Origin: a virus
IMG/VR virus record: IMGVR_UViG_3300021197_001919
Span: 1-45,371 of that record
DNA length: 45,371 bases
Direction: 5' to 3' (one strand)
Both the position numbers and the translations under genes were made by a program. The notes below the pieces were generated by a model, which saw nothing but the letters and a program-made list of their open reading frames with translations, was not told where the DNA came from and ran no database searches. This document shows, one piece after another, positions 13,502-36,229 of this stretch. Position 1 is the first letter of the stretch; each line of letters starts with the position of its first letter.

Positions 13502-13521
13502 TGTGTTTTCGATTACACTCC

Positions 13522-13529: not shown

Positions 13530-13553
13530 TATGGATAGCTGGAAAGTAACTCA

Positions 13554-13877: not shown

Positions 13878-14382
13878 ATTGTACACAGACAAAGTTGAAT
13901 CCTTTGAATGTAACGTCGCAGTGACTGGAGCATCATTAAAGGAGTCTCAGTTCAGGGCAATATTAAAAACAAATAATAAAAATCTACTCTACGAGGGAAC
14001 AATAAACTCCTCAGGTAAAGCAGAAGTAGTCTTTCCAAAACTTAAAAATATTTTATCAGAAGGTGATTATGGAGAGATGGTATTAGAGTTGATAGCAGAC
14101 GATGCTTATTTTCAACCATATAGTGAAAAATTTATTGTGGAGACTTCAAAAAAAGCTACGGTTGAAATTATTAGATCCAAACCTAGTAAGCCAGTAATCT
14201 CTATACGGAAAGTTACTCCAGAGTCACAGCTGATAGAGGTGCTAAAAGCTAACGGGGTGACCAAAAAAATTATTATGGATAATAAACAGACTTTTGGAAA
14301 AGTTCTCCATAATTATTATCAAGACAGTAAACTCTCAATAGGTTATAATGTATTTCTCAAAAACATAATCGGTCGTATTTAG
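13867..14382 (+). CDS. Hypothetical protein with N-terminal beta domain, 171 aa
   Basis: Starts with ATG inside the end of the previous gene (11-base overlap) and ends TAG at 14380..14382, sharing one base with the next start. The first 95 residues alternate strands and turns (FECNVAVTGASL, LLYEGTINSSGKAEVVFP, EMVLELIADDAYFQPYSEKF) like a small beta sandwich. A Lys/Pro-rich linker (SKPSKPVISIRK) leads to a helical tail of about 60 residues. I do not recognise the family. Its place between fibre genes suggests a virion or assembly protein. Confidence 0.7.
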   Translation: MSIKLYTDKVESFECNVAVTGASLKESQFRAILKTNNKNLLYEGTINSSGKAEVVFPKLKNILSEGDYGEMVLELIADDAYFQPYSEKFIVETSKKATVEIIRSKPSKPVISIRKVTPESQLIEVLKANGVTKKIIMDNKQTFGKVLHNYYQDSKLSIGYNVFLKNIIGRI

Positions 14383-18378: not shown

Positions 18379-21300
18379 ATGGCCATCAGAGACTTAATAG
18401 TCCTAAACACCACTCAGAGTAGACTGGAGCCCCAGCAGGGTTCAGATACCGTCAGACTCAAGGGAGGTTCGGACGAACTACTTAGAATTAGTGACTCATC
18501 AGACGTCGCTGTATTGACTATAAACACTTTATCTCCAGGATTAAACATCGTGGGTACAATCACTGGTAGTGATTTTTCAGGCAGTGGAGCAACCACAGCT
18601 TCTCTAACACATGTACTGGTTGATGGTATGACTGGTGATGCAAACCAGTTAGTCAATGTGATCCCAACAGATTCAGTTTCTAGCTCAGCACAACTAGCTG
18701 TTGCTATATCAGGTTCATGGCAAGGTGAATTTTCTAGTAGTGCAAAACTTTTTATTGGTGGAGGAGTATCCGGATCAGAAGAATCAACTGGTTCATTTGG
18801 TTTAGTGAAATCCACAACTCTTTTTGGAAATGCTTCTGAGATCAGAAACGTTACCAACCCAGGAACCATATCCGGTTCGGCTTCAACTTTTTACAGTGAG
18901 GATATTTCAGATGATATATCCGGATCTTGGAGAAACATACTAGAGTATTCAGGAAGCTATGATGCTCAATTACGTTCTGGATCATCAGACAATCTATTGA
19001 TCAACACGACACTATCAGGTTCAGAGGCATCAACCGGCTCTTTTGACAATTTATTTGTAGAGACTTCCATGAGTGGGGACGGAACATATCTCACTGGTAT
19101 CATAACTGCAGGCACAATCAGCCAATCCAGTAATGGAATATTTGACGGAAACTCATTAATTGGACAAGAGATATCCGGATCCTTTTTGGGATTTGTCTCG
19201 AGTTCAGGTACCGGTTCGGATGCATTGAATGTATTTGGGCAGATATCAGGCAGCTCTATCTCTACGGGATCATTTGATCGTTTAGCTGGACGCCTCAGAG
19301 GTGATGGATCACAAATAACCAATATAATAAAACCGGGATTGATTTCTAGTTCAGCACAACTATTTAATCCAACACCAGTCAGTAGTACTACATATGCCCA
19401 GTACAGAGGACCATCACACACATCAGGGTCATCCCTTTCGTTGGTATCATCCAGTATGTTGTTAGTGGTTTCAACTTCATTTAGCGGCTCAGCTACTTCA
19501 ACGGGTTCATTTGATGTATTGAGTGTGGATACGTTCACGGGAGATGGATCTGAGATATCAGGGTTAAACATTCCATCTGGAGCACTTTCAAGTTCCGCGG
19601 ATCTAACCGATGCTAGTGGTTCATGGTTGGAAACTTCATCGAGTCTAGTGGCTCAGTTGATCGCTTCGGCCTCCGGTCTAGTCAATCAAGACGTCACGTC
19701 TGGTAGCAGTCCATATTTCCAAGAGGTCAATGTAACCGACACAATAATTTATAACCAGCTGGTTATCAGTCAATCCAATGTGAACTACACGAGTAGTATG
19801 GCTGGAGGATCTACTCAGTTTGGTGATGATACGACTGATACTCACGAGATGACGGGATCATTGAACATAAGGGGTCACTCCAACATAAAGGCGTTTAGAT
19901 TTAACGGTGCAAAATACGAAAACTCGTTTCAGCCAAGTGGATCGGATTTCTTTGCCACTGTTAGCTCATCCGCACAGACCAACGACAAGGCAATGATTCC
20001 ACCACGACAGAGCGGAAGCTCAGCTGGGTACACGTTATCAGCTTGGATCCAAGATACGGCTCCTTCACGATCGCGATCTGGAGGATACAACAGCAACACA
20101 AATAATTACGAGTCGGGGATAGGTTCTGGCGTGGGAGGTAGACCGCAAACTGGACAACCTTACTACGATGGAACGAAGAGGGGAATCATAACGTTCTTGA
20201 GAACCTCCATGAACACCAACAGTACTCATGATGGTGGAATTGCATACACAGCGGGCAGAATACAAGCTACAGATAACGATGGCGGCAATCGAACACTCAC
20301 TGGTAACAGAAGAATTGATGATGGTCAGTGGCATCACGTAGTACTTACCGTACAACAACAAGCATCAATGAGTATATACATAGATGGTGTGTTTGACGAA
20401 TCTTACGACAGCTTTGGTAATTTTATGAGAAATCGTGAAAATATGGTCATTGGAAGTCATCTAACTCAATATACTGGTAATTTTAGTTGGGCCTTTGATG
20501 GAATGATCACTGATGCGGCAATGCACGATTACGTCATGTCAGCATCTACCGTTGCTGAGATATACAACGGAGGCGCTCCAGTAAACCTATTGGAACCGGT
20601 AGGAACCTACACACAAGAAATAGTTGATGGTATGTGGGGATACTACAGAATGGGAGACGTCACGCCTCTCAGCAGTGGTTCAGCTTTTGCATCCGCTTCA
20701 TATTTTCCCGAGGGACGTTCTGGAGGGTATGGACCTGGTTGGGAATTAAACAATGCAGCAAGTTCTAGTTATCTAACGCTTTATAGTTATGGATCGGGTC
20801 TTGCAAATGGAACAATTGGTCAGATCAGTGGTTCAAGCTACGAGGTCAATCCCTCAGTAACACCATCAAGAGATATGATCACGGTGATTGGAAACATATC
20901 GGGTTCTTCAGTCTCATCAGCATCCTTTGGAGCCTTTAGTGGGTCGGGAGATGGATTGACACAAGTGAACTTTACATCTTCCAGGATGTCACAGACTCAA
21001 TTTGGAGATCAAGTAGAAGCATTCCACATCCCAACAGGATCAACGGAAGAGAGACCAACTACAATTGATCCATCCAGAGACTTTTCGACCGGTAGTATAG
21101 CACCATACGTTTCTGCTAGTGGACTCATGAGATTCAATTCAACTCTAAGTAACTTTGAGGGTTGGGATGGTATAAACTGGATCACCATGGTGGAAGGTTC
21201 AGCAAACACTGAGGCCACAACCATTAGTGGTAGTATAGTGATATCCGGAAGTGTTCCAGGTCAGAGAGCATTAGCTGGAGGAGCTAGAAATTCTGACAGT

Positions 21301-22128
21301 GCCGATACAAAAAACATTGATGCTTTCACGATATCAACATTTGGTAATGCCACCGATTATGGGGATCTCACAGGAGTCACAAAAGGTCCATCTGGTCTAT
21401 CGGATGGAATTCACGATAGAGGAGTATTTGCAGGAGCCCTAACGTCAGCAACTGAGACTATGGAACTAATTAGTTTGACCATACCAGGCAATTCGGTAGA
21501 TTTTGGTGATCTAGGAGCATCTGGACAATTCTGTTCAGCTTGTTCAAATGGTTCAGATTCCGTCGGAGTAATATTTGGTGTAGGAAATGCAGTCACGATG
21601 GAATTTATAAACATAAGGGTCTTGGGAGACGCTATAGATTTTGGAGACTCAACTCAGGTTAGAAAATTTTCTGGAGCTACCTCTAATGGAAAAAATAATA
21701 GAGGGATAGTAGCAGGAGGACAAGGTCCAATCGTATCTGATATTGATCTCATTACAATTTCAACTAAGGGTGATGCTACTAAGTTTGGAGATTTAGCAAA
21801 TGCAGCTCAGTATGCAGGAATGGTTTCAAATGATACGGGCGAGAGAGGAGTAAAGTTTGGAGATGTACCATCTACCGCTTTTATGGAATACATCACTATA
21901 TCAACACTTGGTGATGCGGCTATTTTTGATGGACGCCTGCCAGGAAAAGCTAGAGAAACTTCCGGTGTTTCAAATGGTGTTGGTGAGCGAGCAGTAATTA
22001 TTGGAAACGGGGACGGAGATGCCACAAATCAAACCTTCACAATTTCTACATCTGGCAATGCGGTTGATTTTGGTGAATTGACGGCGGTTGGAGATCTACA
22101 CGGTAGTTTATCAAACGGAGCACAATAA
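18379..22128 (+). CDS. Giant adhesin with LamG-like domain and one six-repeat propeller cassette, 1249 aa
   Basis: The N-terminus MAIRDLIVLNTTQSRLEPQQ, then GSDTVRLKG, is shared with the genes at 22132 and 25785. Residues about 60-480 are fibre repeats of the form F-x-G-(D/N)-x-S/A-x-(L/I)-x-N(V/I), then ISSSAQL, then ISGSWQG. About residues 505-730 form a LamG/concanavalin-A-like domain, with GYTLSAWIQD, DGQWHHVVLTV, MSIYIDGV and a closing AEIYNGG. From residue 963 to the end there are six kelch-like repeats of about 48 residues with core TIST-x-GNA-x-DFGDL and SNG. Probable role: receptor or glycan-binding head of a virion fibre. LamG and kelch-like assignments rest on motif pattern; ligands are unknown. 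Confidence 0.85.
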   Translation: MAIRDLIVLNTTQSRLEPQQGSDTVRLKGGSDELLRISDSSDVAVLTINTLSPGLNIVGTITGSDFSGSGATTASLTHVLVDGMTGDANQLVNVIPTDSVSSSAQLAVAISGSWQGEFSSSAKLFIGGGVSGSEESTGSFGLVKSTTLFGNASEIRNVTNPGTISGSASTFYSEDISDDISGSWRNILEYSGSYDAQLRSGSSDNLLINTTLSGSEASTGSFDNLFVETSMSGDGTYLTGIITAGTISQSSNGIFDGNSLIGQEISGSFLGFVSSSGTGSDALNVFGQISGSSISTGSFDRLAGRLRGDGSQITNIIKPGLISSSAQLFNPTPVSSTTYAQYRGPSHTSGSSLSLVSSSMLLVVSTSFSGSATSTGSFDVLSVDTFTGDGSEISGLNIPSGALSSSADLTDASGSWLETSSSLVAQLIASASGLVNQDVTSGSSPYFQEVNVTDTIIYNQLVISQSNVNYTSSMAGGSTQFGDDTTDTHEMTGSLNIRGHSNIKAFRFNGAKYENSFQPSGSDFFATVSSSAQTNDKAMIPPRQSGSSAGYTLSAWIQDTAPSRSRSGGYNSNTNNYESGIGSGVGGRPQTGQPYYDGTKRGIITFLRTSMNTNSTHDGGIAYTAGRIQATDNDGGNRTLTGNRRIDDGQWHHVVLTVQQQASMSIYIDGVFDESYDSFGNFMRNRENMVIGSHLTQYTGNFSWAFDGMITDAAMHDYVMSASTVAEIYNGGAPVNLLEPVGTYTQEIVDGMWGYYRMGDVTPLSSGSAFASASYFPEGRSGGYGPGWELNNAASSSYLTLYSYGSGLANGTIGQISGSSYEVNPSVTPSRDMITVIGNISGSSVSSASFGAFSGSGDGLTQVNFTSSRMSQTQFGDQVEAFHIPTGSTEERPTTIDPSRDFSTGSIAPYVSASGLMRFNSTLSNFEGWDGINWITMVEGSANTEATTISGSIVISGSVPGQRALAGGARNSDSADTKNIDAFTISTFGNATDYGDLTGVTKGPSGLSDGIHDRGVFAGALTSATETMELISLTIPGNSVDFGDLGASGQFCSACSNGSDSVGVIFGVGNAVTMEFINIRVLGDAIDFGDSTQVRKFSGATSNGKNNRGIVAGGQGPIVSDIDLITISTKGDATKFGDLANAAQYAGMVSNDTGERGVKFGDVPSTAFMEYITISTLGDAAIFDGRLPGKARETSGVSNGVGERAVIIGNGDGDATNQTFTISTSGNAVDFGELTAVGDLHGSLSNGAQ
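21265..22125 (+). repeat. Kelch-like cassette, six repeats (287 aa)
   Basis: Begins after the lead-in SVPGQR and runs to the stop. I count six units of about 45-51 residues, opening at RALAGG, RGVFAG, VGVIFG, RGIVAGG, RGVKFG and RAVIIG. Each unit carries an I/L-T-I-S-type strand, GN/GD-A, a DFG-like turn (DYGDL, DFGDL, DFGDS, KFGDL, IFDGR, DFGEL) and SNG or SDG near its end. Confidence 0.8.
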
Positions 22129-22131
22129 GAC

Positions 22132-25100
22132 ATGGCAACTAAAGATATAGTATTACTCAACCCCACTAGTTCCAAACTAGAAGCCCAACAGGGTACCGAT
22201 ACAGTACGGATCAAGGGAGATTCTTCCATGATCTTTTCTGTGGAGAGAACAACAAATGAGAGAATATTTGGAGTAGCTACCGAGACGGCAAGTATAGTAT
22301 CACCAGCCATAACTGCGTCAGGTGCAATCACGATGTCCGGAACAGGATCGTTTGGTAGAATGGAAGCAACACTCTATCAGGGAGATGCATCGACTGTATC
22401 CTTTACGTTACCAGAAAATTTAGTCAGTAGTTCAGTACAGTTAGGTTCCAACATATCTGGTTCCTGGGGAGGAGATCTCTCTCAATCCGAATTCACATAT
22501 CCGGAATACGTAGCTGGTACAGAATCAGGACTGACCTTTGTATCAGGAGGACTCACGGGATCTGTGAGCTCGACAGCTTCCTTTGGGAGAGTCGAGGCTG
22601 ATATTATAGTAGGTGATGCGTCCCAACTAACCAATCTATTTGAAACAGATACGATCAGTGGATCAACACAACTCCGCACAACAATATCAGGATCCTGGCA
22701 ATCATACTTCAGTAGTTCGGATCAAGTTTATATCAGTGGAGGTGTCTCGAGTTCAATCACACAGACTTCTTCATTTGGTCATGTCGTCGCTAATTCTTTC
22801 ACCGGTGACGGCTCTGGAATAACCAAGAGCTCTTTCATCCCGGACAAAGCAATCAGTAGTTCCATCCAGATAGGAAATCAAAACATTTCGGGTTCATGGC
22901 AGGGCATCACGTCTGGTTCCGACCAGTTGTTCATCTCAGGAGGACTCACATCCTCTCATGGACCATTCAATAGTTCATCATTTGAATTTGGTGCCGACTC
23001 ACCATTATCTTTCTTCAAGCTAGGAAGCACTGCAGGTTACAAGATGATCTACAACAGTGGTTCAACCATGGGGGCCTGGATAAAAATTAAGGGTCCGGGC
23101 TATCCTAATTCAGAGAATAGAGGCGAATATGCCATCACCGGTGACGATCAACAAAATCGACAATTTCACATCTCGTCCAACAACAATACAAACTATGGCA
23201 AAGTCAACTATCTAAACTATCCTTACACAAAAGGTGGAAACGCTACTTCAACAACCCGTTTGACTGCTGATGAGTGGCATTGGGTCGTAGTAGCCACGAG
23301 AGATCGCAATGGATTTGGCGGTGATGTAGGGATCCGGATATACGTTGACGGAAGACTTGACGGTACTGGCGAGTTAGGTAATTCATCAACCGATCAACCA
23401 TTTGAGATCGATCAGTTAGGTCATAAGGGCTCTTTTACCGGTAATGCAGTTATGGATGGATTCATAACAGAGTTTGCAGTCTGGGACACAGCACTATCGA
23501 GCAGTATGATTGAAGAGCTGTACAATGCAGGTAATGGAGCGGACGCCATGGTTCCACGAGGAACCTATACGGCACATCACACCGCCAGTCTACACCTCTA
23601 CTATAGAATGGGTGATCCTGAGGAAACATCAGGTGGTCAGACGGTACCAGAGTACAATGGATCTAGATGGTTTGTACCAAACATAGCAAGTGCCAGTTAC
23701 GTAACCGCTTCTTCACACAACATGTCACTTACCTCATCAGTAGCTGGATTGGGTAACGTGCCTCACTCCGCTAACAGGTTTGAGACGGTTGTCGCAAATA
23801 CATTTACGGGAGATGGAACCGCACTAACCAATGTGTTACCTGCTGGATTCCTTAGCAGCTCAGAACAATGGGCCAGTGAAGTCACGGGTGCATGGCAGGG
23901 CATCCTATCGAGTTCCGAACAATTATTGATCTCCGGAGGAGTATCGAGCTCAGCTGCTAGAGCATCAAGTTTTTCTAAAGTCGAGGCAAACACCTTGGTT
24001 GGAGATGGATCAGCACTCAAGGGAATCTTTACCAGTGGTGAAATATCATCATCCGTGCAGATACAAGCAGAACTGACCGGATCATCCCATTGGGGTAATG
24101 TATCAACAGCTTCATTGACCACTATACTCACTCAATTTAATCAAGATGTATCACCAGGAGGTTCACCAACTTTTAACACTGTTCAAGTGAGTGGGTCAAT
24201 AAGAGCAGCCACGATGATACTCAGCAGTTCTACTTCTTTCTATACATCATCAAAAGCATCTGGTTCAACCAACATGGGTAACTCAACGGATGACATTCAC
24301 TCATTTACTGGATCACTATTTTTGTCAGGAGCTCATGCTGATCTGTTTGGAAACGTAAGTAGTACATCAACAGCCTCATTTGCTGAATTTGCAGGTGATG
24401 CTACTGGACTAATATTCACTGGAACTACACCAACTGCTAGTTTTGTAGATCCTCTTGATGCCCTGAGAGCTCAAGACTCTGAAGGTGCCCAAACAGGTTC
24501 CTTTACAATACCAAGTGGGGTCACGGGAAACTATTCTGTTCATTCCGGAAGTCTCTTGGTGAATAAGGGTAGGAGAGATGCAGATACTGGTGAAGCTCTA
24601 CTGAGACATAACATTATAGCCGAGAATACAAATTTTCAATACTTTGCGACATCAGGAAGTGCAACAGCCTACCAATCAGGTTCAACACATACCACTGATG
24701 CAACGGGTTCTGGTCTCACGGGATACGATCCCATATCAGCATCTTCGTATAGTCCACCATCACCACATGGTAGTCTCACGCATCAATTTTTTGAAATGTG
24801 GGATGGCCTCAACTACAGACCGTTCATCACGGGTTCTGTACAGGTTGGCGAGAGAGCAGTTACGGTAAGTGGATATCAAGTGTATAACGCTAAGGGCATG
24901 ACCTATCTCACAATTTCCCACGGAGGTACTACGGTAGATTTTGGAGAGATCTCCGGTAATGCAGGATTAAATAATCTTGGAGCAATGTCAAATGGTGTAA
25001 ATGAAAGAGGTGTCACGACAACACAACCAACATCTCCAAACAACAAGGGAATAGAATTTATTACAATCAGCACTCCATCCAACGCAACAGATTTTGGACT

Positions 25101-25740
25101 ATTGGCCTTTAACAAACTGTATCAAGCTGCTAGCAGTGGTACAAATGATCGAGGAATCTTCAGTGGAAAGGAAAAGTCAACAGCCCAACCATACCAGTAC
25201 GTCACGATATCAACGACCGGTAATGCAGCTGCCTTTGGAGATTCTTTTCAAGCAGGTACTTTGGGTGCAATGGCATCTAATGGTACAAACGGCAGGGCTC
25301 TACAGAGTGCCGGATCTGCAACAACTGGTATTGACAGAAAGGGTATAGAGTTCCTAACGATGCACACTCTTAGTAATGCATTAGACTTTGCAGACATGAC
25401 GGTAGCTAATCTTAACCGAACTGCACTATCCAATGACACCAACAATAGAGCTTTGTTTTTGGGAGGAGCAACAATCAACACAATAGATTATGTTGATGTG
25501 AGTACGATAGCAAACGCTACGGATTTTGGAGATCTGGCTGGTACAAACGTTGAAGGAGCTGCAACGTCCAACGGAACCAACGATAGAGGAGTTGTGATGG
25601 GAAAAGGAGAACCCGGCAAGCGTAGCATTTCAGCAGCTGCTATTGAATTCGTCACGATATCCACTCCTGGTAACGCAATCGTGTATGGAGAGAATTCAAA
25701 CTTGGGTTCAATGCAACCAATGTCCAATGGTGCAAAATAA
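22132..25740 (+). CDS. Giant adhesin paralogue with LamG-like domain and one propeller cassette, 1202 aa
   Basis: Starts three bases after the previous stop. The N-terminus MATKDIVLLNPTSSKLEAQQ, then GTDTVRIKG, is clearly homologous to its neighbours. Residues about 70-280 and 530-700 are F-x-GD(G/A)S-x-L / ISSS-x-QL / ISGSWQ fibre repeats. About 283-467 is a LamG-like domain (TMGAWIKIKG, TADEWHWVVVATRD, IRIYVDGRLDG, and a closing IEELYNAGNG). Residues 908-1202 form a six-repeat cassette. Architecture matches the 1249-residue gene upstream, so the two arose by duplication, but the LamG and propeller sequences have diverged strongly while the first 35 residues have not. That pattern fits a fixed virion attachment site with changing receptor heads. 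Confidence 0.85.
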   Translation: MATKDIVLLNPTSSKLEAQQGTDTVRIKGDSSMIFSVERTTNERIFGVATETASIVSPAITASGAITMSGTGSFGRMEATLYQGDASTVSFTLPENLVSSSVQLGSNISGSWGGDLSQSEFTYPEYVAGTESGLTFVSGGLTGSVSSTASFGRVEADIIVGDASQLTNLFETDTISGSTQLRTTISGSWQSYFSSSDQVYISGGVSSSITQTSSFGHVVANSFTGDGSGITKSSFIPDKAISSSIQIGNQNISGSWQGITSGSDQLFISGGLTSSHGPFNSSSFEFGADSPLSFFKLGSTAGYKMIYNSGSTMGAWIKIKGPGYPNSENRGEYAITGDDQQNRQFHISSNNNTNYGKVNYLNYPYTKGGNATSTTRLTADEWHWVVVATRDRNGFGGDVGIRIYVDGRLDGTGELGNSSTDQPFEIDQLGHKGSFTGNAVMDGFITEFAVWDTALSSSMIEELYNAGNGADAMVPRGTYTAHHTASLHLYYRMGDPEETSGGQTVPEYNGSRWFVPNIASASYVTASSHNMSLTSSVAGLGNVPHSANRFETVVANTFTGDGTALTNVLPAGFLSSSEQWASEVTGAWQGILSSSEQLLISGGVSSSAARASSFSKVEANTLVGDGSALKGIFTSGEISSSVQIQAELTGSSHWGNVSTASLTTILTQFNQDVSPGGSPTFNTVQVSGSIRAATMILSSSTSFYTSSKASGSTNMGNSTDDIHSFTGSLFLSGAHADLFGNVSSTSTASFAEFAGDATGLIFTGTTPTASFVDPLDALRAQDSEGAQTGSFTIPSGVTGNYSVHSGSLLVNKGRRDADTGEALLRHNIIAENTNFQYFATSGSATAYQSGSTHTTDATGSGLTGYDPISASSYSPPSPHGSLTHQFFEMWDGLNYRPFITGSVQVGERAVTVSGYQVYNAKGMTYLTISHGGTTVDFGEISGNAGLNNLGAMSNGVNERGVTTTQPTSPNNKGIEFITISTPSNATDFGLLAFNKLYQAASSGTNDRGIFSGKEKSTAQPYQYVTISTTGNAAAFGDSFQAGTLGAMASNGTNGRALQSAGSATTGIDRKGIEFLTMHTLSNALDFADMTVANLNRTALSNDTNNRALFLGGATINTIDYVDVSTIANATDFGDLAGTNVEGAATSNGTNDRGVVMGKGEPGKRSISAAAIEFVTISTPGNAIVYGENSNLGSMQPMSNGAK
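24853..25737 (+). repeat. Kelch-like cassette, six repeats (295 aa)
   Basis: Follows the lead-in VQVGER. Six units open at RAVTVSG, RGVTTTQ, RGIFSGK, RALQSAG, RALFLGG and RGVVMGK. The core TIST-x-xNA-x-DFG is recognisable in each, with variants such as TMHTLSNALDFAD and DVSTIANATDFGD. The last unit ends SNGAK at the stop codon. Confidence 0.8.
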
Positions 25741-25784
25741 CAAAAAAGTAAACTTTAAGATAATTATTCAATAGGAAGACCTAC

Positions 25785-28700
25785 ATGGCAATCAAAGATC
25801 TCATAGTATTAAACGAAACAGATTCCAAACTGGAAGCTCAACAGGGCACAGATACTGCTCGGATTAAAGGTACGTCCAGAACGGTTTTGGATATAGTATC
25901 CGATGATGAAGTTTCAGTACTAAAAGTCAATAGTTCCGGAAGTGAAGTCGTGATGGGAGGACCAGTAACGATGTCCGGCGACATATCGGGTAGTTTACCC
26001 ACCGCATCTATGGGTCATGCTAAAGCGGCAGTCTTCACGGGAGATGGATCAGAACTCACTGGAATAATCACTCCTGATACCGTGAGTAGTTCGTTGCAGC
26101 TAGCTGACGTAATCTCGGGATCATGGCAAACTGAACTCTCTAGTTCAGATCTAGTCTTTGTTGACGGAGGTATATCAGGCTCGGGTGTTTCTACGGGTTC
26201 GTTTGGAAGATTTATAGCCGTGGATACATTTGCTGGAGAAGGAACACAATTATCAAATGTCCCGTTCAATGGAATAGTATCGAGTTCCACACAGATAGGT
26301 CAAGACACTTCGGGTAGTTTTCTGGGTCAACTCAGTGGAACTGCGCCGGCACAAACATTTATTGGAGGAGGAGTATCAGCTTCTCTGAACTCCAGTAGTT
26401 CACTCCATTCAGTTGTAGCTTCCTTTGAAGGAGATGCTTCACAACTCACGGGTATGGATTTACCTCACGGATTAATAAGTAGCTCCGCTCAACTACCAGA
26501 TGTTTCTGGATCTTATGTTGGTCTATTTGTTTCAGGGTCAGTCATAGAGCTGAATAAGGGCTTGAAGGCTGCGGGATCAGGAGGAGTCAGTGGTTCAAAT
26601 GCAGGTCCTGGTGGTCAGAAAGCAATCTTTTCCGGCTTTAATAATAACGAAATTCAACACGTTACGATCAGCACATTAGGTGATACTGCAGATTTTGGTG
26701 ATCTTACCGAAACTTTGAGGTATGGTGGTGTTATATCCAACGGATCAAATGACAGGGGTATAATAGCTGGAGATTACCCAAGCACAAATACAATTAATTA
26801 CGTCACGATATCAATAAATGCAAATGCTCAAGATTTTGGTGATTTGGGTTCATTCAACAATGATAGTAGACACGGTGCAAAGAATTCTATCTCGAATGGT
26901 ACAAACGAGCGGGGCATATTCACCGGTGGAGTTTATCCCAACTATGGGGCCGATATCCATCAGTTCATAACGATATCCACCTTAGGTAATGCAAAACTTT
27001 TTGGTAATTTAGAAACCACAATGTTCAATATAGGGGCCCATGGAACCTCAAATCAAACAAACGAGAGAGGAATCATAGATGTCAGACAGGTGATGGAATA
27101 CATCACGATATCTACGTTGGGAGACTCTGCTTTTTTTGGGAACCATCTAGAAGATGGAACCACAGGTGGATTTGGTCGCATAGGACACACATCGAACGGT
27201 ACCGATAACAGGGCAGTCCGAGGAGGTACAAACTCTACTACTATAGCATATCACACCTTAGCAACTAACAGTGATAGTTTAGATTTTGGAGATTTCACTG
27301 AAACTTTTGGTACGGGAAACACCGCAACCTCTAACACTACGGATCAAAGAGGACTTTTTACTCAAGGCAATTCAACAGATACAATGAATTATCTTACGAT
27401 CAATACGTTAGCAAACGCTTTAGATTTTGGTAACTTTGAAGCCGGCTATGGGGGTCACATGGCAGCCTCAAATGCCGGTGCAACTCAACATGTTAGTGAA
27501 CTCTCGGAGATCACATCAAGTACTTTTGTTGGAGATGGAGCGGGTCTGACATTTGATCTACCACTTGGAGCTGTTTCCTCCAGCAGAGATATTGGACATC
27601 ACGTATCTAACTCGTTACACTCTCCAATGGGTGTAGCTGTGAATAATTTGGTGGCCTGGTGGGAAATGGGAGAAAACATAGAGATCTCTGGGACCGTAGG
27701 AGATCCGCAGGCAAAAGTGATCAGAGTGTTTGATAGTTCAGGAAATGGTAATCACCTCATAGCTTCAGGATCAATCTCGGGATCCAACATAGTAACTAGT
27801 TATACGCCATCTGGTAGTACCTATCATAACAACTATACGGGCTCATACAGAGCTCTTGAGTTTGATCGAACCGATCAGTTTCTACAAACAGAAAAACCTT
27901 TTGATGTTTTCTTGAAACCACAATTCACAATATCGTTTTGGTTCCGTGGTAATCTTGGTGGATACACGCAACAACAAGTATTTTTTCAAAACGGTGTAAT
28001 GGATATAAATGCATACGCCAACTATTTCAATACTACGGTTCATGGTATAACGCTACAATCTCAACAAGTAACCGGTATATCGTATCCCAAGTGGCAACAC
28101 TTCGTAATCACATGTGATAGGGACACGCGTCAAATCAACCTCCATGGCAATAATCAGGGTAATGTTGCTTCCGCGTCCATTGAAGGTCAAGCACCTACGG
28201 GTAAATACTATCACGGTACGAATCAAAGCGGATCAACACTATATGATCGTTATTGGCCTCAAAACGACGATCCCACACCAATCTACGGGAATGCAGCTAA
28301 TCCTTTTAGAATAGGTGCAAATGCAACCCTGAGCAAACTTATAACTGGAAGTTTTGATGACATCGCGATCTACGATAAAGTATTATCTCTAGAAGAGATT
28401 ACAACCCTGTACAACTACGGTACCGGTAGTCATCCCAACGCTATCTCGAGTTCCCATATGGACTCTGTACAAACGGAAATGTTTGTTGGTGGCGGTGTAA
28501 CGACAGGATACAGCTTTAATAACTCACTATCTTCTTCTGCTGGAGGAGATAGAGTGTTGATAGCCGGAGGAACAAATTCTTCAGACACTGATACGGACAC
28601 AATAGAACACATAACTGTGAGCACACCGGGTAATGCTATAGATTTTGGAAATCGCACAGAGGGCAAGTACAACATCTCAGCACTTTCCAACGGTCTCAGA

Positions 28701-31175
28701 CAGAGAGGATTATTTGCTGGTGGGTTTGATGGATCGGATGGATCCAATGTGATAGATTTTGTCACGATAGACACGACTGGAAACGCAACGGATTTTGGAG
28801 ATCTAACGGCTGCAGGATATGCTGGTGACGGCATGTCTAACGGTCCAGATGACCGCGGGGTCATTATTGTCGGTGAAGCCAACGGAGACGCTTTAGATTT
28901 TGTCACGATAAGCACGGCAGGTAATGCGGTAGCTTTTGGTAACACTTTATCATCGGCAGCCAGAACAGCTGGAGCCACAGACAATGCTACAAATCAACGA
29001 GGTATCATTGCGGGAGGAACACCTGCTCAGGATGTCATAGAATTCATCACGATATCCACACTGGGTGGAGGATCACAGTTTGGTGATCTCTCACAAAACA
29101 CCACAGGAGCTAAGGGTCACTCTAACAAACAAAATGAACGAGCAGTCTTTGCGGGAGGAGCCACGAATACAATTGAGTTCGTGACGATGAACGTACTGGG
29201 CAACTCTGTTGATTTTGGAGACATGACACAACTAAAGACCTCAGAGGATCAAACAGCTGGTTCCTCAAATGCAATAAATGAGAGAGGAATCATGGTAGCC
29301 TCAACGACTACCGCTCACTCAATTGAAAACATAACGATCTCAACACCAAGTAACGCATTAATTTTTGGATCGCTTGCAGAAGCCAGAGAGGCAACCGCAG
29401 CGACATCCAACGCAACACCCACGAGAACAATTAACAGTTCATTCCCTGAGATCACAGCGGATAGAGTATCTGGTGTTGGTACCGCGATAACAAATCACGT
29501 TCCAGCTAACCTCGTTACCTCATCGGCTCAGTTAGCCTCAGAGATATCGGGATCTGTGGGAAGGTTTGAATCCACGTACTCTCCATATAGTGTCGAGATG
29601 TATCAGGGAACAGCAACCGGATCTACCGACATGCCATTCACGGCCTCAGCCGCAATGAAGAACGAACGATCGGTTCGATTTAATAATAATGGTTCGATAG
29701 GGATCACGGGTAGTCTGATGGCTCCAATGAGTGAATCTCAGACCTGGACTTGGTCTCATTGGTTGAGACAGACAAAAAATACATTTGAAAATTCCACTGA
29801 TAACGTTATCCAGGAATACAATCACACAATGAATTCCAACTACTACAATGGCATATGGAGGCTCAGACAAAACTCTCACTTGTTCCGAGTCATCACACCT
29901 AAATTTGACGATAGTGGGACAGATACAGTCTCATTAGATTTTACCAATGAAAAAACTTTCCTGAGAACATTTGGATACCAATGGAATCACCACGTGGTCA
30001 CATACGAACAGTCTTCCAGTAAGGTCGTCGATGCTGTATCGGGATCTACACCTCACTTGTATTCAATGTACCTCAATGGTAACTTGATGACTACTAGATC
30101 TGTTTCGCTAGAGTACAGAAACCCCATGGGGATCTCCGCTAGTCATTCAGATCGAGATCCAGGTAGAGATGGACCTATACGTATAGGAGAGAGATCTCCA
30201 GCTGGATCCAACTGGCAGGGATACTTCAACCACTCGGCCTACTGGGATACAGCTCTTTCGGCATCAGCTCTTAGATATCTATGGAATGCCGGTATAGCAG
30301 CAGATCCGCTCGTGAATTCACCATCGTATAACGCAGCAGCCAATCTTGTTGGATACTACCGATACGGCGATACCCAAAACGGAGTATCTGCATCTCACGA
30401 TGGATCCGCATGGCACTTTGGTAACCTGGCTAGTGGTAGTGGTAATGGATACGAGAACACATGGGCTTCCGCGTCATTCCAAGGAACATCAGATTCATCA
30501 AATAGAATTGACTTTGATGCACCACCCAAGAATGACAGATTCTTGACCGCAAGGTATCCAGAGGCATTATCAGGATCACAAGATGCCACGATAGCCTTCT
30601 GGGCAAGAACCGGTACTACTGGTAAAAAGGTAGAGTACCTAATAGGTAATGCAGCTGAACAGGGATTTGAAATCCGTAAGGGTGGAGATGATGCAAACTT
30701 TAGGTTTGCGGTCTTGACCGGTTCGTCTGCTCACGCCACTTCAAGTTTTGAAACACACCATGCGATCCCCGACAATAACTCTGAGGGAACATCAAGTGGA
30801 TTTGCCCATTATGCTCTCACGTATGATGGGGATGGAGCACTAACGGGATACGTTCAGGGTTCTGGATCAGCACTCACGAGAACCGGCACTGCAACCGCTA
30901 GTTTGAGTTTTGATACTGGATCCTTCAAGTTTGCTGACACAGCAGGTACAGGAATCTTGAACATAGGTAGGAAATCCAGACACTCTGGATCAACATGGTT
31001 GGGAAGTATCCACGAGGTAGCGATATGGACTTCGAGTTTATCCGCAGATGCTATTGCAGACTTAGCAAAGGGACCATTTGACCTTGGTACCAAAACAACA
31101 ACAAATTACAATGCCACTTCAAGTCTTGTGACTTATTTTTCCATGACTAGTGGTTCATTCAATGGAGGCTCTTAA
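25785..31175 (+). CDS. Giant adhesin paralogue with three LamG-like domains and two propeller cassettes, 1796 aa
   Basis: ATG at 25785 with AGGAAG at 25773..25778. The N-terminus MAIKDLIVLNETDSKLEAQQ, then GTDTARIKG, matches the two upstream paralogues. Order of modules: fibre repeats (residues about 60-275); propeller cassette 1 (279-568); LamG-like domain 1 (about 620-882, LVAWWEMGEN, FTISFWFRG, WQHFVITCDRD); propeller cassette 2 (923-1213); LamG-like 2 (about 1270-1510, WTWSHWLRQT, WNHHVVTYEQ, YSMYLNGNL); and LamG-like 3 (about 1574-1780, ATIAFWARTG, FAHYALTYDGDG, a closing LGSIHEVAIWTSSLS). Compared with its paralogues it has gained one cassette and two lectin-like domains. It runs straight into the next gene (stop and start share one base). 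Confidence 0.85.
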   Translation: MAIKDLIVLNETDSKLEAQQGTDTARIKGTSRTVLDIVSDDEVSVLKVNSSGSEVVMGGPVTMSGDISGSLPTASMGHAKAAVFTGDGSELTGIITPDTVSSSLQLADVISGSWQTELSSSDLVFVDGGISGSGVSTGSFGRFIAVDTFAGEGTQLSNVPFNGIVSSSTQIGQDTSGSFLGQLSGTAPAQTFIGGGVSASLNSSSSLHSVVASFEGDASQLTGMDLPHGLISSSAQLPDVSGSYVGLFVSGSVIELNKGLKAAGSGGVSGSNAGPGGQKAIFSGFNNNEIQHVTISTLGDTADFGDLTETLRYGGVISNGSNDRGIIAGDYPSTNTINYVTISINANAQDFGDLGSFNNDSRHGAKNSISNGTNERGIFTGGVYPNYGADIHQFITISTLGNAKLFGNLETTMFNIGAHGTSNQTNERGIIDVRQVMEYITISTLGDSAFFGNHLEDGTTGGFGRIGHTSNGTDNRAVRGGTNSTTIAYHTLATNSDSLDFGDFTETFGTGNTATSNTTDQRGLFTQGNSTDTMNYLTINTLANALDFGNFEAGYGGHMAASNAGATQHVSELSEITSSTFVGDGAGLTFDLPLGAVSSSRDIGHHVSNSLHSPMGVAVNNLVAWWEMGENIEISGTVGDPQAKVIRVFDSSGNGNHLIASGSISGSNIVTSYTPSGSTYHNNYTGSYRALEFDRTDQFLQTEKPFDVFLKPQFTISFWFRGNLGGYTQQQVFFQNGVMDINAYANYFNTTVHGITLQSQQVTGISYPKWQHFVITCDRDTRQINLHGNNQGNVASASIEGQAPTGKYYHGTNQSGSTLYDRYWPQNDDPTPIYGNAANPFRIGANATLSKLITGSFDDIAIYDKVLSLEEITTLYNYGTGSHPNAISSSHMDSVQTEMFVGGGVTTGYSFNNSLSSSAGGDRVLIAGGTNSSDTDTDTIEHITVSTPGNAIDFGNRTEGKYNISALSNGLRQRGLFAGGFDGSDGSNVIDFVTIDTTGNATDFGDLTAAGYAGDGMSNGPDDRGVIIVGEANGDALDFVTISTAGNAVAFGNTLSSAARTAGATDNATNQRGIIAGGTPAQDVIEFITISTLGGGSQFGDLSQNTTGAKGHSNKQNERAVFAGGATNTIEFVTMNVLGNSVDFGDMTQLKTSEDQTAGSSNAINERGIMVASTTTAHSIENITISTPSNALIFGSLAEAREATAATSNATPTRTINSSFPEITADRVSGVGTAITNHVPANLVTSSAQLASEISGSVGRFESTYSPYSVEMYQGTATGSTDMPFTASAAMKNERSVRFNNNGSIGITGSLMAPMSESQTWTWSHWLRQTKNTFENSTDNVIQEYNHTMNSNYYNGIWRLRQNSHLFRVITPKFDDSGTDTVSLDFTNEKTFLRTFGYQWNHHVVTYEQSSSKVVDAVSGSTPHLYSMYLNGNLMTTRSVSLEYRNPMGISASHSDRDPGRDGPIRIGERSPAGSNWQGYFNHSAYWDTALSASALRYLWNAGIAADPLVNSPSYNAAANLVGYYRYGDTQNGVSASHDGSAWHFGNLASGSGNGYENTWASASFQGTSDSSNRIDFDAPPKNDRFLTARYPEALSGSQDATIAFWARTGTTGKKVEYLIGNAAEQGFEIRKGGDDANFRFAVLTGSSAHATSSFETHHAIPDNNSEGTSSGFAHYALTYDGDGALTGYVQGSGSALTRTGTATASLSFDTGSFKFADTAGTGILNIGRKSRHSGSTWLGSIHEVAIWTSSLSADAIADLAKGPFDLGTKTTTNYNATSSLVTYFSMTSGSFNGGS
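26619..27488 (+). repeat. Kelch-like cassette, six repeats (290 aa)
   Basis: Follows the lead-in PGGQK. Six units open at KAIFSG, RGIIAGD, RGIFTGG, RGIIDVR, RAVRGGT and RGLFTQG. The cassette lies before the first LamG-like domain, unlike the C-terminal cassettes of the two upstream paralogues. Confidence 0.8.
28551..29423 (+). repeat. Kelch-like cassette, six repeats (291 aa)
   Basis: Follows the lead-in SAGGDR. Six units open at RVLIAGG, RGLFAGG, RGVIIVG, RGIIAGG, RAVFAGG and RGIMVAS. The four Gly-Gly openings make this cassette the closest of the eight to a classical kelch diglycine pattern. Confidence 0.8.
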
Positions 31176-34100
31176 TGGCTTGGGTATTTAAAGATAAATC
31201 ACCTGGAAACACAGGAAATGAATTATCATCTTCAGTTCCAGCAGCGGTATCTGCATCAGACTTCTTGGAATCATCCAGAAGGGTAGATGCTCCAGCTGAG
31301 CATGAAGATTTATACGAGAGATCACTCCAGGGAAACATTAAACACATTCACGCTAGTGTGGGGGGACAAAATGTAGGCACTACGGGAAATCCCACATTTG
31401 CAAACATCACGGTAACTAACCAGTTGAATGCTGGATCTATCATCGTGGATGCCACTGGACAACCCAACTACTCATCCAGTATTGGAAATGGTTTGTCTGT
31501 GTTTGGAGATACCATTGATGACGTTCATTCTGTAACTGGATCTTTCAACGTCTCAGGTTCTCTAGAAGTTCAGACGCTTATGGATCTGTCGGGATCTTCT
31601 CACTACAGCATGTCTGCAGAATACTTTGAGGGTAAGGGAACATCTCTCGCCAATGCCAAAATAGATAATGCAGATCATGTTCCTGTAGATGTCTTTGAGG
31701 ATACAACATCCGCATTACAGTTGCCTACGGGTTCTAGACCAACACAACCTCCTGGTCAGCGTGGTATTATGGTCGGAGGCGATCAAGGTCCATCCAACGT
31801 TAGTGACCAGATACAATTTGTCACAATCAGTACTCCTTCGAACGCAACAGACTTTGGTAATCTATCAGCTGAGAAGAAAGATCAAGGAGCTGCATCGAAC
31901 GGAGTAAACGACAGAGGGATAACTTTTGGTGGTTTAGCGATAACAGATGTAATAGAATTTAATACGATTAGCACTCCTTCTGATGCCATAGATTTTGGAA
32001 ATATGTTTGAGTTTCTCCATGGAGTGGGAGGAACTTCTAACGGACCCAATGAGAGAGCCTTATTGATTGGTGGTAATGGCCAAGGACAAAAGAACACTAT
32101 AGAGTTTGTCACAATTTCAACCACCGGTAATGCTAATGATTTTGGTGATACGGTTGATCCAAGACACTTAGTCGGAGCAACTAGCAATGGAGTCAACGAT
32201 AGAGCGGTATACGTAGGGAATTCACCCGTCAGTACCGATATAGAATTCGTGACAATATCCACAACTGGTAATGCAGCAAAGTTTGGAGACACTACGGCTA
32301 ATTTTGATGGTCCTCGAGGGAGTTCTAATGATCTCAACGACCGCGCAGTCTTCAACAATGCAGCCACGATAGAATTCTTAGCTATATCACATGAAGGAAA
32401 CACTTTAGATTTTGGCGACCGTACGGTTGCAGCAAAGCTACCATCAGGGTTCTCAAACGGAACTGATGAGAGAGGAATGTTCGCTGGAGGTACAGTGGCT
32501 CCTCTCAACGATACAATTGATTACGTGACGATCTCGACACCAGGAAACGCTATAGACTTTGGGAACATGTTGAGCGCTACCGCGGCTGGATACGGATACA
32601 GTAATTCACCAACACAGAATTGGCCTTATGAGAACAGCCTGGATAGTATCACGTTGTTCACGTCAGGATCAGCAAGCTCTTACTCAAGCATCACGGGTTC
32701 ATATCTCCACATATCAGCATCAACGCAGGGACAATCTGGAGGAGTCTACAGTGGCTCATCGGCAACTCTTCTGGAAACCATTGAATCTGGTTCACTAACA
32801 GTTTCCTCAAATACACCTCCCGGAAACACTAGTGTTCATTTCATGGGAAGTGGTACCAACAATACCTCGATAGAAACCGTGAGGATAAATACTCCGGGTG
32901 ATGCTACAGACTTTGGTGGTGTTCAACTACACCGTGGATATCAAAATGCTGGTCTCAGCAATGGTATTCTGCAACGGGGAATATTCGTTGGTGGAATGTA
33001 TAATGACGACGTTCTTAATAAACAGATACAATACATAACAATTTCTACTCCAGGTAATGCAAACTCATTTGGTGAAGCAGGAGGTCCCGTGAATCAAGCG
33101 GGTGGCTTATCTAATGGTCCAGGTCAACGAGGTGTATACACGAGAACACTGAACCCTGGTCAATCTAATGGTCTTGAGTATATCACGATATCCACGCTAG
33201 GGAATGGTTTTGACTTTGGGGACCAAACGATGGAAAGAACATTAGTATCAGGTCTTTCCAATGGTGTCCACGACAGAGGAGTCTTCGCGGGAGATAAACC
33301 TTTTGTTTCTGGTCAAATGGATTTCATTACAATTTCAACTCCATCGAATGCAAGTATTTTTGGCAATCTTCGTCTACAGATGAACAAACCCGCTGCCTTT
33401 TCGAACGACACCAACGGTAGGGGTATCCTGGCCAGTGGTGGAGGTCTCAATTCAGGTATCATAAATACCATTGAGCACATCGCGATATCAACATTAGGCG
33501 ACACAGCAGAGTTTGGACATTTACAAACCGGAGCAAATGATGGAGCCACTGGAGCCTCTAATGGTCGTGGTGAACGCGGAATAGCATTTGACATGAGGAC
33601 CTCTAACCCAGTAGGACACCTTCCGCTCATTGAAACCATTACGATCGATAGACCAAGTGACGCTGTGACGTTTGGGAATTGTGTCGACACTACACCCAAT
33701 GTAAGTTCAGCAACAAGCGACGGAGCAACCTTTTATCCTCAAGCTGCATACCCATCCATGAGATTTTCTGTAGATTTAGCTCACATGAAAGCAAATGCGT
33801 CCGGAAGTGCTAATTTTCAATCCGGAGGATTATTCACGATACCGATCATCACTTCAGCCAGTACGGCTCAAAGTGGTTCCAATTCTTTCGTGAGGGGAGC
33901 CGAAGGAGCGACCGGTAGGACTGGTATCTTTGAGGCATGGACCGGACTAGTCCCACAGAGGGTAAATGTACCATCAGGTTCATCACCACAATTTTTATCA
34001 TTCCAGGCTAGATCTGGCTCTAGTGCACAGAACGCATCAATGTCAATAGCCTCTACGTTTAATGTATCGGCATCATTCACGAGCGGTAGTGCGGTATCAG

Positions 34101-36229
34101 CATCAACTGTTGCTGCAACGCAAGTATTTGGCACAAACACGATTTATACAGGTGAATGGAAGACTATCACTTCAGGTTCTATCGTACCGGGACAGAGAGC
34201 TGTTGTTGGTAATGGTGGAAGCATTAGTATTGATTACGCCACGATAAGTACACTTGGAAACGCAATAGATTTTGGAGATGGAGTGGCTTCTCTGGATTAC
34301 AGCAGAGGTCTATCCAATGGTGTCCGAGATAGAGGTTTGATCGCTGGTGGTAAGATCACGGGAGGAGCTGATAGAACTACTATAGACTTCATAACAATTA
34401 ATACTCCAGCAAATGCTATAGCTGGGTATGGTGATATTCAACACGGTGATGGGTCTAAAGGTGGTTCTCTATCAAACGGACCAGATGATCGTGGGTTGTT
34501 GTTCAGTAATGAAACAGCAACCGGTAAGATAGAATTTTTATCCTTGGTCTCACCAGGCGACGCTACTGATTTTGGAAATATGGTACATGGAGTCAGAGAT
34601 GAATTCCAACATATGTCCAACGGAGTAGGGAACAGAGGAGCATATACGGGAGGCGGTCCAGCTGCACAGACCGGTATAGAGTTCGTCACGATATCATCGA
34701 TAGGTGACGCTACAACCTTTGGAGATACTACGGTTGCACGTGCAGATCAACATGATGGTGGAGGATCTAATGATCAGAACAACAGAGGAATCTTTGCTGG
34801 TGGCTCTGATAACGTCACGATAGACTTTATAACGCTGACCAGTATAGGTAACGCTATAGATTTTGGCGATCTGGCTATGGATGGTGACGACAGCTACAAC
34901 TGGATGGCAACCAATGGTGTAGGAGAGAGAGCTCTTGTGGGAGCCGATGATGTAAATGAAATAGCATTCATCACTATCAACACAGCGGGTAACTCAACAA
35001 ACTTTGGTGATCTCAACTCTACGAACGATGATGGTAAGTTCGCTCTATCAAATGGAGCAACACATCCTGCGGAACCAGGCTCAACACTATCCGTGGAAAG
35101 AACATTCACATCTAGTTCGATAGCTTTTGGATCCGGATCAACTATATTCAATGCGTCTTCATCACTTGATATAAATGGATTTACTGGACAGCTTTCTCAG
35201 TCTAACTTTGCCACTGGGTCTTCGATAGCACTGACGTCTCGGATTATGAACACAACAGGTTCAGGACAGGTCTCAGCATCTATAAGTGCAGGAGCGCTCA
35301 TAGACTTTTCACCCAAGACGCTACCGGGTGAACGAGGTTTACTGGTATCATCAGACAGTCCAGGCAACGATACTATTGGCTTTATAACAATTAGTACGCT
35401 TGGAAATGCAGCTCTCTTTGGAGAGGTTTCTGTAGCAGCCGTTCTCAAACCCGGAGGTTCAAACGGAACTGGAGGTAGATTTGTTAAGGGAATTGGAGGC
35501 GCAAGTGGAGATGGAAATTTAAGCAATGAATTTTTCACAATAAGTACGTGTGGTAATGCAGTTCATTTTGGTTACGCTACTCATGATCGACAATATAACT
35601 CAGCAGCCACTAACGGAACGGATCAACGCTTGGTGGTCTGTGCCACAAGAAATAATGAGAATGTTGAATTCTTGACCATTTCAACTTTAGGGAACTCTCT
35701 ATTGAGTGGATTTGATACGTCTATATTCACACCTTCTAAGTCTACTAATGGAGTAGATCAAGGTGGAGCAACGTCTAATGGGAGAAACGGTAGAGCGGTA
35801 TGGACCAGTCAATTAAATGGAGGAACAGACGCTGTCCATACAATGTTTTATATGTCAATTCTCTCAGGAGGTGACTCAAAAACATTTGGTACTCTTACGG
35901 GTGCTCCTAATTTTTCTGGAGCTCTGAGTAATGACGTAGATGATCGAGCAGTATTTCATCACCAAAATAGTAATATTATGGATTACATCACGATATCAAC
36001 TCCAATGAATGCTGTAGATTTTGGCGACAATACGGGTAATGGAGGCTCTTGTGTGGGTGTGAGTAATGGAATTAATCAACGAGGTATAGTATATCAACAT
36101 GATACCCTAATTATAAATTACATAACAGTATCTACACCAAGCAATGCTGTTGAGTTTGGTGAGCAATTAGCCGCGGTGGGAGTATCAGATCAATTTGGAG
36201 GACAAGGCGGTACTGATTCAGCTTTGTAA
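31175..36229 (+). CDS. Giant adhesin with four propeller cassettes, 1684 aa
   Basis: The ATG shares its A with the preceding TAA, which suggests coupling to the gene upstream. The N-terminus (MAWVFKDKSPGNTGNELSSS) is unlike the other three adhesins, so it may dock elsewhere or bind to another fibre. About residues 50-190 are fibre repeats (NVGTTGNPTFANITVTNQL, then FGDTIDDVHSVTGSF). Four six-repeat cassettes follow at residues 196-482, 552-852, 1008-1297 and 1387-1684, separated by Ser/Gly/Ala-rich linkers of 69, 155 and 89 residues. No LamG-like domain is visible. It is the extreme case of cassette multiplication in this cluster: 24 repeats in one chain. A receptor-binding role is likely; that the cassettes fold as beta propellers is inferred. 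Confidence 0.85.
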   Translation: MAWVFKDKSPGNTGNELSSSVPAAVSASDFLESSRRVDAPAEHEDLYERSLQGNIKHIHASVGGQNVGTTGNPTFANITVTNQLNAGSIIVDATGQPNYSSSIGNGLSVFGDTIDDVHSVTGSFNVSGSLEVQTLMDLSGSSHYSMSAEYFEGKGTSLANAKIDNADHVPVDVFEDTTSALQLPTGSRPTQPPGQRGIMVGGDQGPSNVSDQIQFVTISTPSNATDFGNLSAEKKDQGAASNGVNDRGITFGGLAITDVIEFNTISTPSDAIDFGNMFEFLHGVGGTSNGPNERALLIGGNGQGQKNTIEFVTISTTGNANDFGDTVDPRHLVGATSNGVNDRAVYVGNSPVSTDIEFVTISTTGNAAKFGDTTANFDGPRGSSNDLNDRAVFNNAATIEFLAISHEGNTLDFGDRTVAAKLPSGFSNGTDERGMFAGGTVAPLNDTIDYVTISTPGNAIDFGNMLSATAAGYGYSNSPTQNWPYENSLDSITLFTSGSASSYSSITGSYLHISASTQGQSGGVYSGSSATLLETIESGSLTVSSNTPPGNTSVHFMGSGTNNTSIETVRINTPGDATDFGGVQLHRGYQNAGLSNGILQRGIFVGGMYNDDVLNKQIQYITISTPGNANSFGEAGGPVNQAGGLSNGPGQRGVYTRTLNPGQSNGLEYITISTLGNGFDFGDQTMERTLVSGLSNGVHDRGVFAGDKPFVSGQMDFITISTPSNASIFGNLRLQMNKPAAFSNDTNGRGILASGGGLNSGIINTIEHIAISTLGDTAEFGHLQTGANDGATGASNGRGERGIAFDMRTSNPVGHLPLIETITIDRPSDAVTFGNCVDTTPNVSSATSDGATFYPQAAYPSMRFSVDLAHMKANASGSANFQSGGLFTIPIITSASTAQSGSNSFVRGAEGATGRTGIFEAWTGLVPQRVNVPSGSSPQFLSFQARSGSSAQNASMSIASTFNVSASFTSGSAVSASTVAATQVFGTNTIYTGEWKTITSGSIVPGQRAVVGNGGSISIDYATISTLGNAIDFGDGVASLDYSRGLSNGVRDRGLIAGGKITGGADRTTIDFITINTPANAIAGYGDIQHGDGSKGGSLSNGPDDRGLLFSNETATGKIEFLSLVSPGDATDFGNMVHGVRDEFQHMSNGVGNRGAYTGGGPAAQTGIEFVTISSIGDATTFGDTTVARADQHDGGGSNDQNNRGIFAGGSDNVTIDFITLTSIGNAIDFGDLAMDGDDSYNWMATNGVGERALVGADDVNEIAFITINTAGNSTNFGDLNSTNDDGKFALSNGATHPAEPGSTLSVERTFTSSSIAFGSGSTIFNASSSLDINGFTGQLSQSNFATGSSIALTSRIMNTTGSGQVSASISAGALIDFSPKTLPGERGLLVSSDSPGNDTIGFITISTLGNAALFGEVSVAAVLKPGGSNGTGGRFVKGIGGASGDGNLSNEFFTISTCGNAVHFGYATHDRQYNSAATNGTDQRLVVCATRNNENVEFLTISTLGNSLLSGFDTSIFTPSKSTNGVDQGGATSNGRNGRAVWTSQLNGGTDAVHTMFYMSILSGGDSKTFGTLTGAPNFSGALSNDVDDRAVFHHQNSNIMDYITISTPMNAVDFGDNTGNGGSCVGVSNGINQRGIVYQHDTLIINYITVSTPSNAVEFGEQLAAVGVSDQFGGQGGTDSAL
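31760..32620 (+). repeat. Kelch-like cassette, six repeats (287 aa)
   Basis: First of four in this gene, after the lead-in PPGQR. Units open at RGIMVGG, RGITFGG, RALLIGG, RAVYVGN, RAVFNNA and RGMFAGG. The core TISTP/T-x-NA-x-DFGN/D is strongly kept, and the last unit ends in SNSPTQN. Confidence 0.8.
32828..33730 (+). repeat. Kelch-like cassette, six repeats (301 aa)
   Basis: Second of four. The first unit is degenerate at its opening (TSVHFMG instead of RGVFAGG) after the lead-in PPGN. The next five open at RGIFVGG, RGVYTRT, RGVFAGD, RGILASG and RGIAFDM. It ends SATSDGAT. Confidence 0.75.
34196..35065 (+). repeat. Kelch-like cassette, six repeats (290 aa)
   Basis: Third of four, after the lead-in IVPGQR. 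Units open at RAVVGNG, RGLIAGG, RGLLFSN, RGAYTGG, RGIFAGG and RALVGAD, and the last ends SNGATH. Confidence 0.8.
35333..36226 (+). repeat. Kelch-like cassette, six repeats (298 aa)
   Basis: Fourth of four, after the lead-in TLPGER. Units open at RGLLVSS, RFVKGIG, RLVVCAT, RAVWTSQ, RAVFHHQ and RGIVYQH. Several openings have lost Gly-Gly, and unit three is about eight residues longer, so this is the most divergent cassette. Confidence 0.75.

Follow-up and report, generated by a model that had tools for sequence, protein, structure and literature searches.

Six-unit repeat cassettes of viral adhesins as predicted six-bladed kelch-type propellers with a constant number of blades

We analysed a stretch of DNA of 45371 bases, a viral record of IMG/VR that is called the window throughout this text, in which four neighbouring genes (A to D) encode adhesins carrying blocks of a tandem repeat (Table 1). 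An original prediction, made from the sequence, had counted here eight blocks of six units each, with the repeat never scattered. An HMM of the unit, built from 20 clear units, iterated and searched at full sensitivity, agrees with this reading: there are eight blocks in the four genes, and 8/8 contain exactly six units of 47-49 residues, with the weakest true units at 25-31 bits and the best stray match at 13 bits, the strays being isolated and weak. The spans had been given as 287-301 residues and were measured as 285-301, so the upper bound stood and the lower one was set slightly too high. That most cassettes follow a PGQR or GER lead-in was roughly right, as PGQR, GER or PGER stands before the cassettes of A and B and before D1, D3 and D4, and the other three are preceded by GGQK, GGDR and PPGNT.

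Table 1. Positions of the adhesin genes, their cassettes and lectin-type domains in the window
Feature	Position	Strand	Description
Adhesin gene A, 1249 aa	18379..22128	+	Stalk-like part at the N-terminus; LamG-like domain; a single cassette of six units at the C-terminus
LamG/ConA-like lectin-type domain in gene A	20248..20556	+	PF13385, residues 624-726, E 3e-14
Cassette A1	21265..22125	+	Gene A residues 963-1249; six units; lead-in PGQR; end at stop codon
Adhesin gene B, 1202 aa	22132..25740	+	One C-terminal cassette
Cassette B1	24853..25737	+	Gene B residues 908-1202; six units; lead-in GER; end at stop codon
Adhesin gene C, 1796 aa	25785..31175	+	Two cassettes plus LamG-like domains
Cassette C1	26616..27482	+	Gene C residues 278-566; six units
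Cassette C2	28545..29426	+	Gene C residues 921-1214; six units
LamG/ConA-like domain in gene C	30561..31058	+	PF13385, residues 1593-1758, best of three stretches, E 1.9e-21
Adhesin gene D, 1684 aa	31175..36229	+	Four cassettes in series
Cassette D1	31760..32614	+	Gene D residues 196-480; six units; predicted six-bladed propeller, pLDDT 93.2
Cassette D2	32828..33730	+	Gene D residues 552-852; six units
Cassette D3	34196..35065	+	Gene D residues 1008-1297; six units; lead-in PGQR
Cassette D4	35333..36226	+	Gene D residues 1387-1684; six units, most degenerate; lead-in PGER; predicted propeller, pLDDT 81.4

Judging by a gp20-type portal (PF07230, E 5.6e-42) and a gp17-type terminase (PF03237, E 6.3e-10) encoded in the window, the surroundings of the adhesin genes are those of a T4-like phage (myovirus), and an SbcC-type protein is also encoded there. 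The portal (44392-45369) is nearest to those of Microcystis phage Mel-JY01 (52%) and Flavobacterium phages immuto (47%). An ORF of 4042 residues (1373-13501) has no PHROG match and only sub-threshold Pfam matches, and a 1030-residue protein (38475-41567) has a cytidylyltransferase-like part of NMNAT type (residues 25-113) and a NUDIX domain (residues 259-367). At 37826-38428 the PHROG label is ferrochelatase and the Pfam match a 2OG-Fe(II) oxygenase, and the PHROG label looks doubtful. One contig of the IMG/VR sample, L005, is 99.7% identical to a part of the window across 12.9 kb. Of the 39 substitutions between them 18 lie in one 669-base gene (37156-37824), all 18 of them synonymous, a pattern as after recombination with a relative; L005 also misses one base at window position 34003, by which gene D is split between cassettes 2 and 3, and this is either a sequencing error or a real frameshift. 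A comparison of these two strains for hypervariability of the loops found few changes falling in the cassettes.

The original prediction had proposed six-bladed beta propellers. The AlphaFold2 model of cassette D1, with an input alignment of D1 and 93 other cassettes, reached a pTM of 0.90 (pLDDT in Table 1) with about four strands per unit, and that of the most degenerate cassette, D4, a pTM of 0.84, where it should be taken into account that the alignments held six-unit cassettes only and single cassettes were folded, so that other blade counts were never offered to the ring. In a Foldseek search of the PDB with the D1 model, 50/50 of the best matches were kelch propellers, natural or designed (TM 0.78-0.82, 10-16% identity), including the SAKe6 designs, KLHL12, KLHL3, a Plasmodium kelch protein and KEAP1. 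The matches of D4, at TM of about 0.6-0.7, were six-bladed propellers of two types, kelch and YWTD (LRP6, LDL receptor). In the viral library the top matches were phage proteins without a name and one from a Burkholderia phage that is labelled as kelch-motif containing, with a protein of Synechococcus phage S-SKS1 in fourth place. At the level of prediction, both models thus bear out the proposed fold and resemble closed propellers, not the open solenoids that would have spoken against it, and we consider the assignment of the cassettes to six-bladed propellers as well supported by modelling.

The sequence relation to the kelch family is less direct. The unit model of 47-49 positions lies within the kelch criterion of roughly 44-56 residues, the double glycine that ends strand B is present (columns 6 and 7 are G in 86% and 91% of residues), and so is the strand-C tyrosine (column 18, Y 72%, F 13%). 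The strand-D tryptophan is absent, column 30 being F in 95% and W in 1%. Only one of 94 cassettes reaches the Pfam Kelch_1 profile (PF01344), at E 0.089, and hhalign to kelch gave 4% (insignificant) for the family of the window, family 1, and 45% (weak, same phase) for the related family 2, with less than 3% to NHL and WD40. No named family was found for the repeat in Pfam, NCBIfam or PHROGs, where it falls only in unnamed PHROGs, for example 26444 and 19111, and a PDB sequence search gave no significant match. By sequence the repeat is not a PF01344 member, though it would be logical to suggest that it functions as kelch propellers do and possibly descends from one.

With the kelch domain of Keap1 and the KLHL proteins the cassettes share the predicted fold (TM about 0.8), the four strands per unit, the strand-B double glycine and the strand-C aromatic, as well as the strand phase of the block ends and the variable loops (PMC4668279). 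They differ in the low identity mentioned above, in the phenylalanine of the strand-D motif DFGDL that replaces tryptophan, in the unmatched Kelch_1 profile, in belonging to a viral adhesin and not to an E3 ligase adaptor, and in having several rings per chain. Kelch-type propellers in phage have been described before: the giant phage vB_PcaM_CBB encodes the kelch-like proteins CBB_550, 552 and 554, of which CBB_552 was found in the virion (PMC5259590). Those proteins, unlike the cassette repeat, are recognised by InterPro kelch signatures, and the paper reports no copy-number analysis (PMC5259590).

The order of segments at the block ends is instructive. Strand B of the unit is RGxFxGG, strand C is IDYVTIST, strand D is NATDFGDL and strand A of the next blade is AAxSNG, and every block opens at strand B, which ends in the double glycine, and closes with AAxSNG. 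In Keap1, too, the double glycine is at the end of strand B, and blade I is made complete by strand A from the C-terminus (PMC4668279). As the B-to-A phase of the cassette blocks is the Keap1 phase, the ring would be closed by the last strand, as the missing piece of the first blade; the pairing of strands A and B that would shut it is suggested by analogy, and the segment order at the block ends fits it. Over 3000 units the variability is high in two loops, BC (3.19 bits) and DA (3.28 bits), and low in the conserved CD turn (1.33 bits) and AB turn (1.67 bits), and most insertions stand at the start of the BC loop. In Keap1 the ligand pocket is built by the BC and DA loops (PMC4668279). Since by this geometry both variable loop sets of the cassettes would lie on one face, we infer a role in receptor binding. 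From the loop variability, the LamG domains and the place among phage genes, the variable face may be suggested to bind a host-surface molecule.

The count of six holds far beyond the window. Relatives were gathered in IMG/VR by degenerate DNA patterns, which gave more than 200 stretches among the matches listed, that is, a sample; the statement of the original prediction that similar repeats occur in marine phages was thereby borne out. A first segmentation into blocks, where gap size was the sole criterion and the number of units per block was not limited, gave among the matches listed 273 six-unit blocks, nine of 6+6 and one of 6+6+6, with linkers visible. In the full set, among the matches listed, a second segmentation, whose merge step was limited to six units, found six units in 500 of 518 complete blocks, and a count per ORF without any segmentation gave 6 (290), 12 (84) or 18 (3) units in 377 of 399 complete ORFs among the matches listed. 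Clustered by single linkage at 70% identity, the 500 six-unit cassettes fall into 427 groups (among the matches listed). Homologous blocks of seven or of another regular number were not found among the IMG/VR matches listed; five, seven or irregular counts had been named in the original prediction as evidence against it, and the fives that did appear come from a missed degenerate unit or a frameshift. Controls counted per ORF in bacterial loci, where units are missed more often, gave multiples of six in 8/31 (WD40), 14/34 (kelch) and 10/30 (NHL). Because the unit recurs in sixes in many other contigs, and the control repeats do not, the sixes of the window are not due to chance.

Inspected one at a time, the remaining 22 ORFs either contain a degenerate unit or a frameshift or are short, the last group being three ORFs with 1, 2 and about 2.5 units. 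Several candidate exceptions were set aside: L153, L160, L017, L022, L005, L082, L041, L127, L104 and L062 contain degenerate units below the threshold, the end units of L206 and L220 are degenerate (read by eye), frameshifts interrupt the ORFs of L091, L067 and L135, and an apparent seven-unit block in L107 has one unit split in two. The short gene of L081 (ORF at about 13347-13931, + strand) has a clean N-terminal part, two units and the usual end (SNA, stop), and is either what a deletion has left behind or a chain able to form six as a trimer. The short ORFs of L138 (+0_1764, about 2.5 units) and L134 (+0_1331, 1 unit) stand directly behind normal gene starts (MPLRPPAGFI... and MSIKNW...) and next to intact six-unit genes, and look like deletion derivatives. 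Two records of cellular genomes also carry the repeat, L125 (Desulfobacter vibrioformis) with one intact cassette of 6 and L126 (a single-cell assembly of Epulopiscium sp.) with intact genes of 12, 12 and 6, and these may be of prophage, of phage contamination or of host origin.

The rule also holds in two sequence-distant families. Searching the INPHARED phages by tblastn gave no match with a window cassette, and a more canonical cassette reached S-SKS1 alone. This isolate has a distant unit, YGYFGGG...DRIDFSNETTSAPGNNLPQAR, and the linker SGGASERIKGSRT follows unit six in 3/3 of its traceable genes. Its repeat proteins (SWZG_00001, SWZG_00289 and neighbours), annotated as hypothetical, are broken by frameshifts in the record: at the ends of NC_020851.1 (L228, L229) three repeat genes are split by frameshifts and record ends, with 6+6 across the frames, and a reading of 8-9 units per protein was rejected, the ORFs being frameshifted pieces of 6+6 genes. 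The S-SKS1-type repeat (family 2) is a sister of the window family, with a profile-profile probability of 94% and blocks of six units, and differs from it by about 30% identity to a family-1 cassette and by the double ring in all intact genes found. In IMG/VR, 45/45 intact complete genes found have 12 units as 6+linker+6. One irregular gene (L245, ORFs +0_974 and +1_1325) is frameshifted and has 4+linker+6; its units 1/3 and 2/4 are closely similar, which is what the loss of a two-unit piece, or its collapse in assembly, would leave. Two divergent, mutually identical ORFs read as 9 units with a unit-sized gap present. A third repeat type is carried by the single-cell Marine viruses AG-345-L05 and AG-345-O18, in which three ORFs have 18 units each, with one linker behind the sixth and another behind the twelfth. 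In AG-345-L05 another ORF (L359, +0_3621) has, by eye, about six units of the third type and then a stretch resembling LamG, so that the domains are paired as they are in the window.

Under this constant number the units turn over. In the S-SKS1-type family the identity of units is 0.604-0.628 within a gene and 0.569 at the same position in other contigs, and position barely matters (0.569 at the same position vs 0.564 at others). Of 539 units, 318 have their nearest relative at another position of another gene, 101 within their own gene and 120 at the same position elsewhere. For 29 of the 12-unit genes of this type the median internal identity is at least 60%, which is the threshold used in a survey of recently amplified propellers (PMC9218822). 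Near-identical pairs of units also occur at unequal positions, a sign, to judge by their sequences, of recent duplication or conversion that left the total as it was. In family 1, neighbouring cassettes of one ORF have an in-register identity of 0.436 vs 0.414-0.425 when shifted, and from this weak memory of position it follows that descent from a six-unit ancestor contributes. Turnover is thus evident in the S-SKS1-type family and, the signals being weaker, only suggested for the family of the window. The WRAP-type propellers (PMC9218822, PMC6805158) resemble the cassettes, as they too are closed rings, with amplification and homogenisation of the blades inside single genes. They differ in one respect: recently amplified propellers show a continuum of blade numbers, and it was stated that 'there is no counting system' in the amplification (PMC9218822), whereas here the number is essentially six or a multiple of six.

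We propose that each cassette is a closed six-bladed kelch-type beta-propeller, in which one unit would supply strands B, C and D together with strand A of the next blade, and the last strand A would complete the first blade and so close the ring. The adhesins of this T4-like phage, proteins of the tail-fibre type, would carry the propellers in series together with domains of LamG/ConA-like type. The BC and DA loops of a propeller would be gathered on a single face, as they are in Keap1, and this face would bind a molecule of the host surface. Ring closure would make six, or multiples as separate rings, the accepted number, and selection would hold this count while the blades duplicate, recombine and drift. 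This explanation as a whole, with ring closure as the probable cause of the fixed count, we hold with strong confidence. The strongest competing account of the number is that six is merely inherited, an ancestral six-unit cassette having been copied whole many times with the count unchanged and no selection acting on it. The position memory of family 1 speaks in its favour, but in the S-SKS1-type family such memory is nearly absent and units are homogenised within genes, near-identical pairs at unequal positions point to recent duplication or conversion with the total kept, and neutral turnover would spread the counts, as in WD40-type propellers (PMC9218822), so that we regard pure inheritance as unlikely.

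That the repeats form an open beta-solenoid or a fibre shaft, six being a rule of length and no ring being involved, might be expected from tandem repeats in phage fibres, which often build shafts, and from cassettes that stand in series; the high-confidence model with whole-length matches to closed kelch rings, the linkers that part the blocks wherever there are 12 or 18 units, and the phase of the block ends make it very improbable. Still less credible is an artefact of the counting procedure, since, although the second segmentation merges up to six units only, the first one had no such limit and gave the same sixes, with 6+6 and 6+6+6 parted by linkers, the count per ORF needs no segmentation and the control repeats give a spread. 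A question of another kind is whether the propellers are receptor-binding heads at all or serve as passive spacers, structural connectors or an enzyme-like domain. The cassettes of C and D do lie inside long chains, up to four in series, yet the variable positions gather in the two sets of loops from which the ligand face of Keap1 is built, and lectin-type LamG-like domains are found in the same proteins; we therefore see such a role as doubtful, though the most plausible of the alternatives discussed here.

A part of these results is ordinary, as a closed ring needs a fixed blade number and six-bladed kelch rings as such have long been known. The original prediction had given the six-unit rule as one not known to be described, and in the open-access literature we found no paper on kelch or propeller phage fibres that states it. 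What is less ordinary is a large natural set in which the blades turn over and their number is constant.

It can be suggested, and we see the chances here as evenly balanced, that the blade is the unit of evolution, whereas selection acts on the whole ring: single blades undergo duplication, conversion and exchange, be it between positions, between cassettes or between genes, and only rings of six, one to four per protein, survive. If true, this would be a natural exception to the blade-number continuum of recently amplified propellers. Rare two-unit genes, such as that of L081, might by analogy reach six as trimers (3 x 2), in the way the Ralstonia lectin RSL reaches six as a trimer. How propellers settle on their blade number is an open question (PMC9218822, PMC6805158), and hundreds of viral genes with blade turnover at a constant six make it testable in natural sequences and by simple folding tests. 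The cassettes also reveal a large unannotated class of marine phage adhesins, whose likely ligand-binding loops are legible from sequence.
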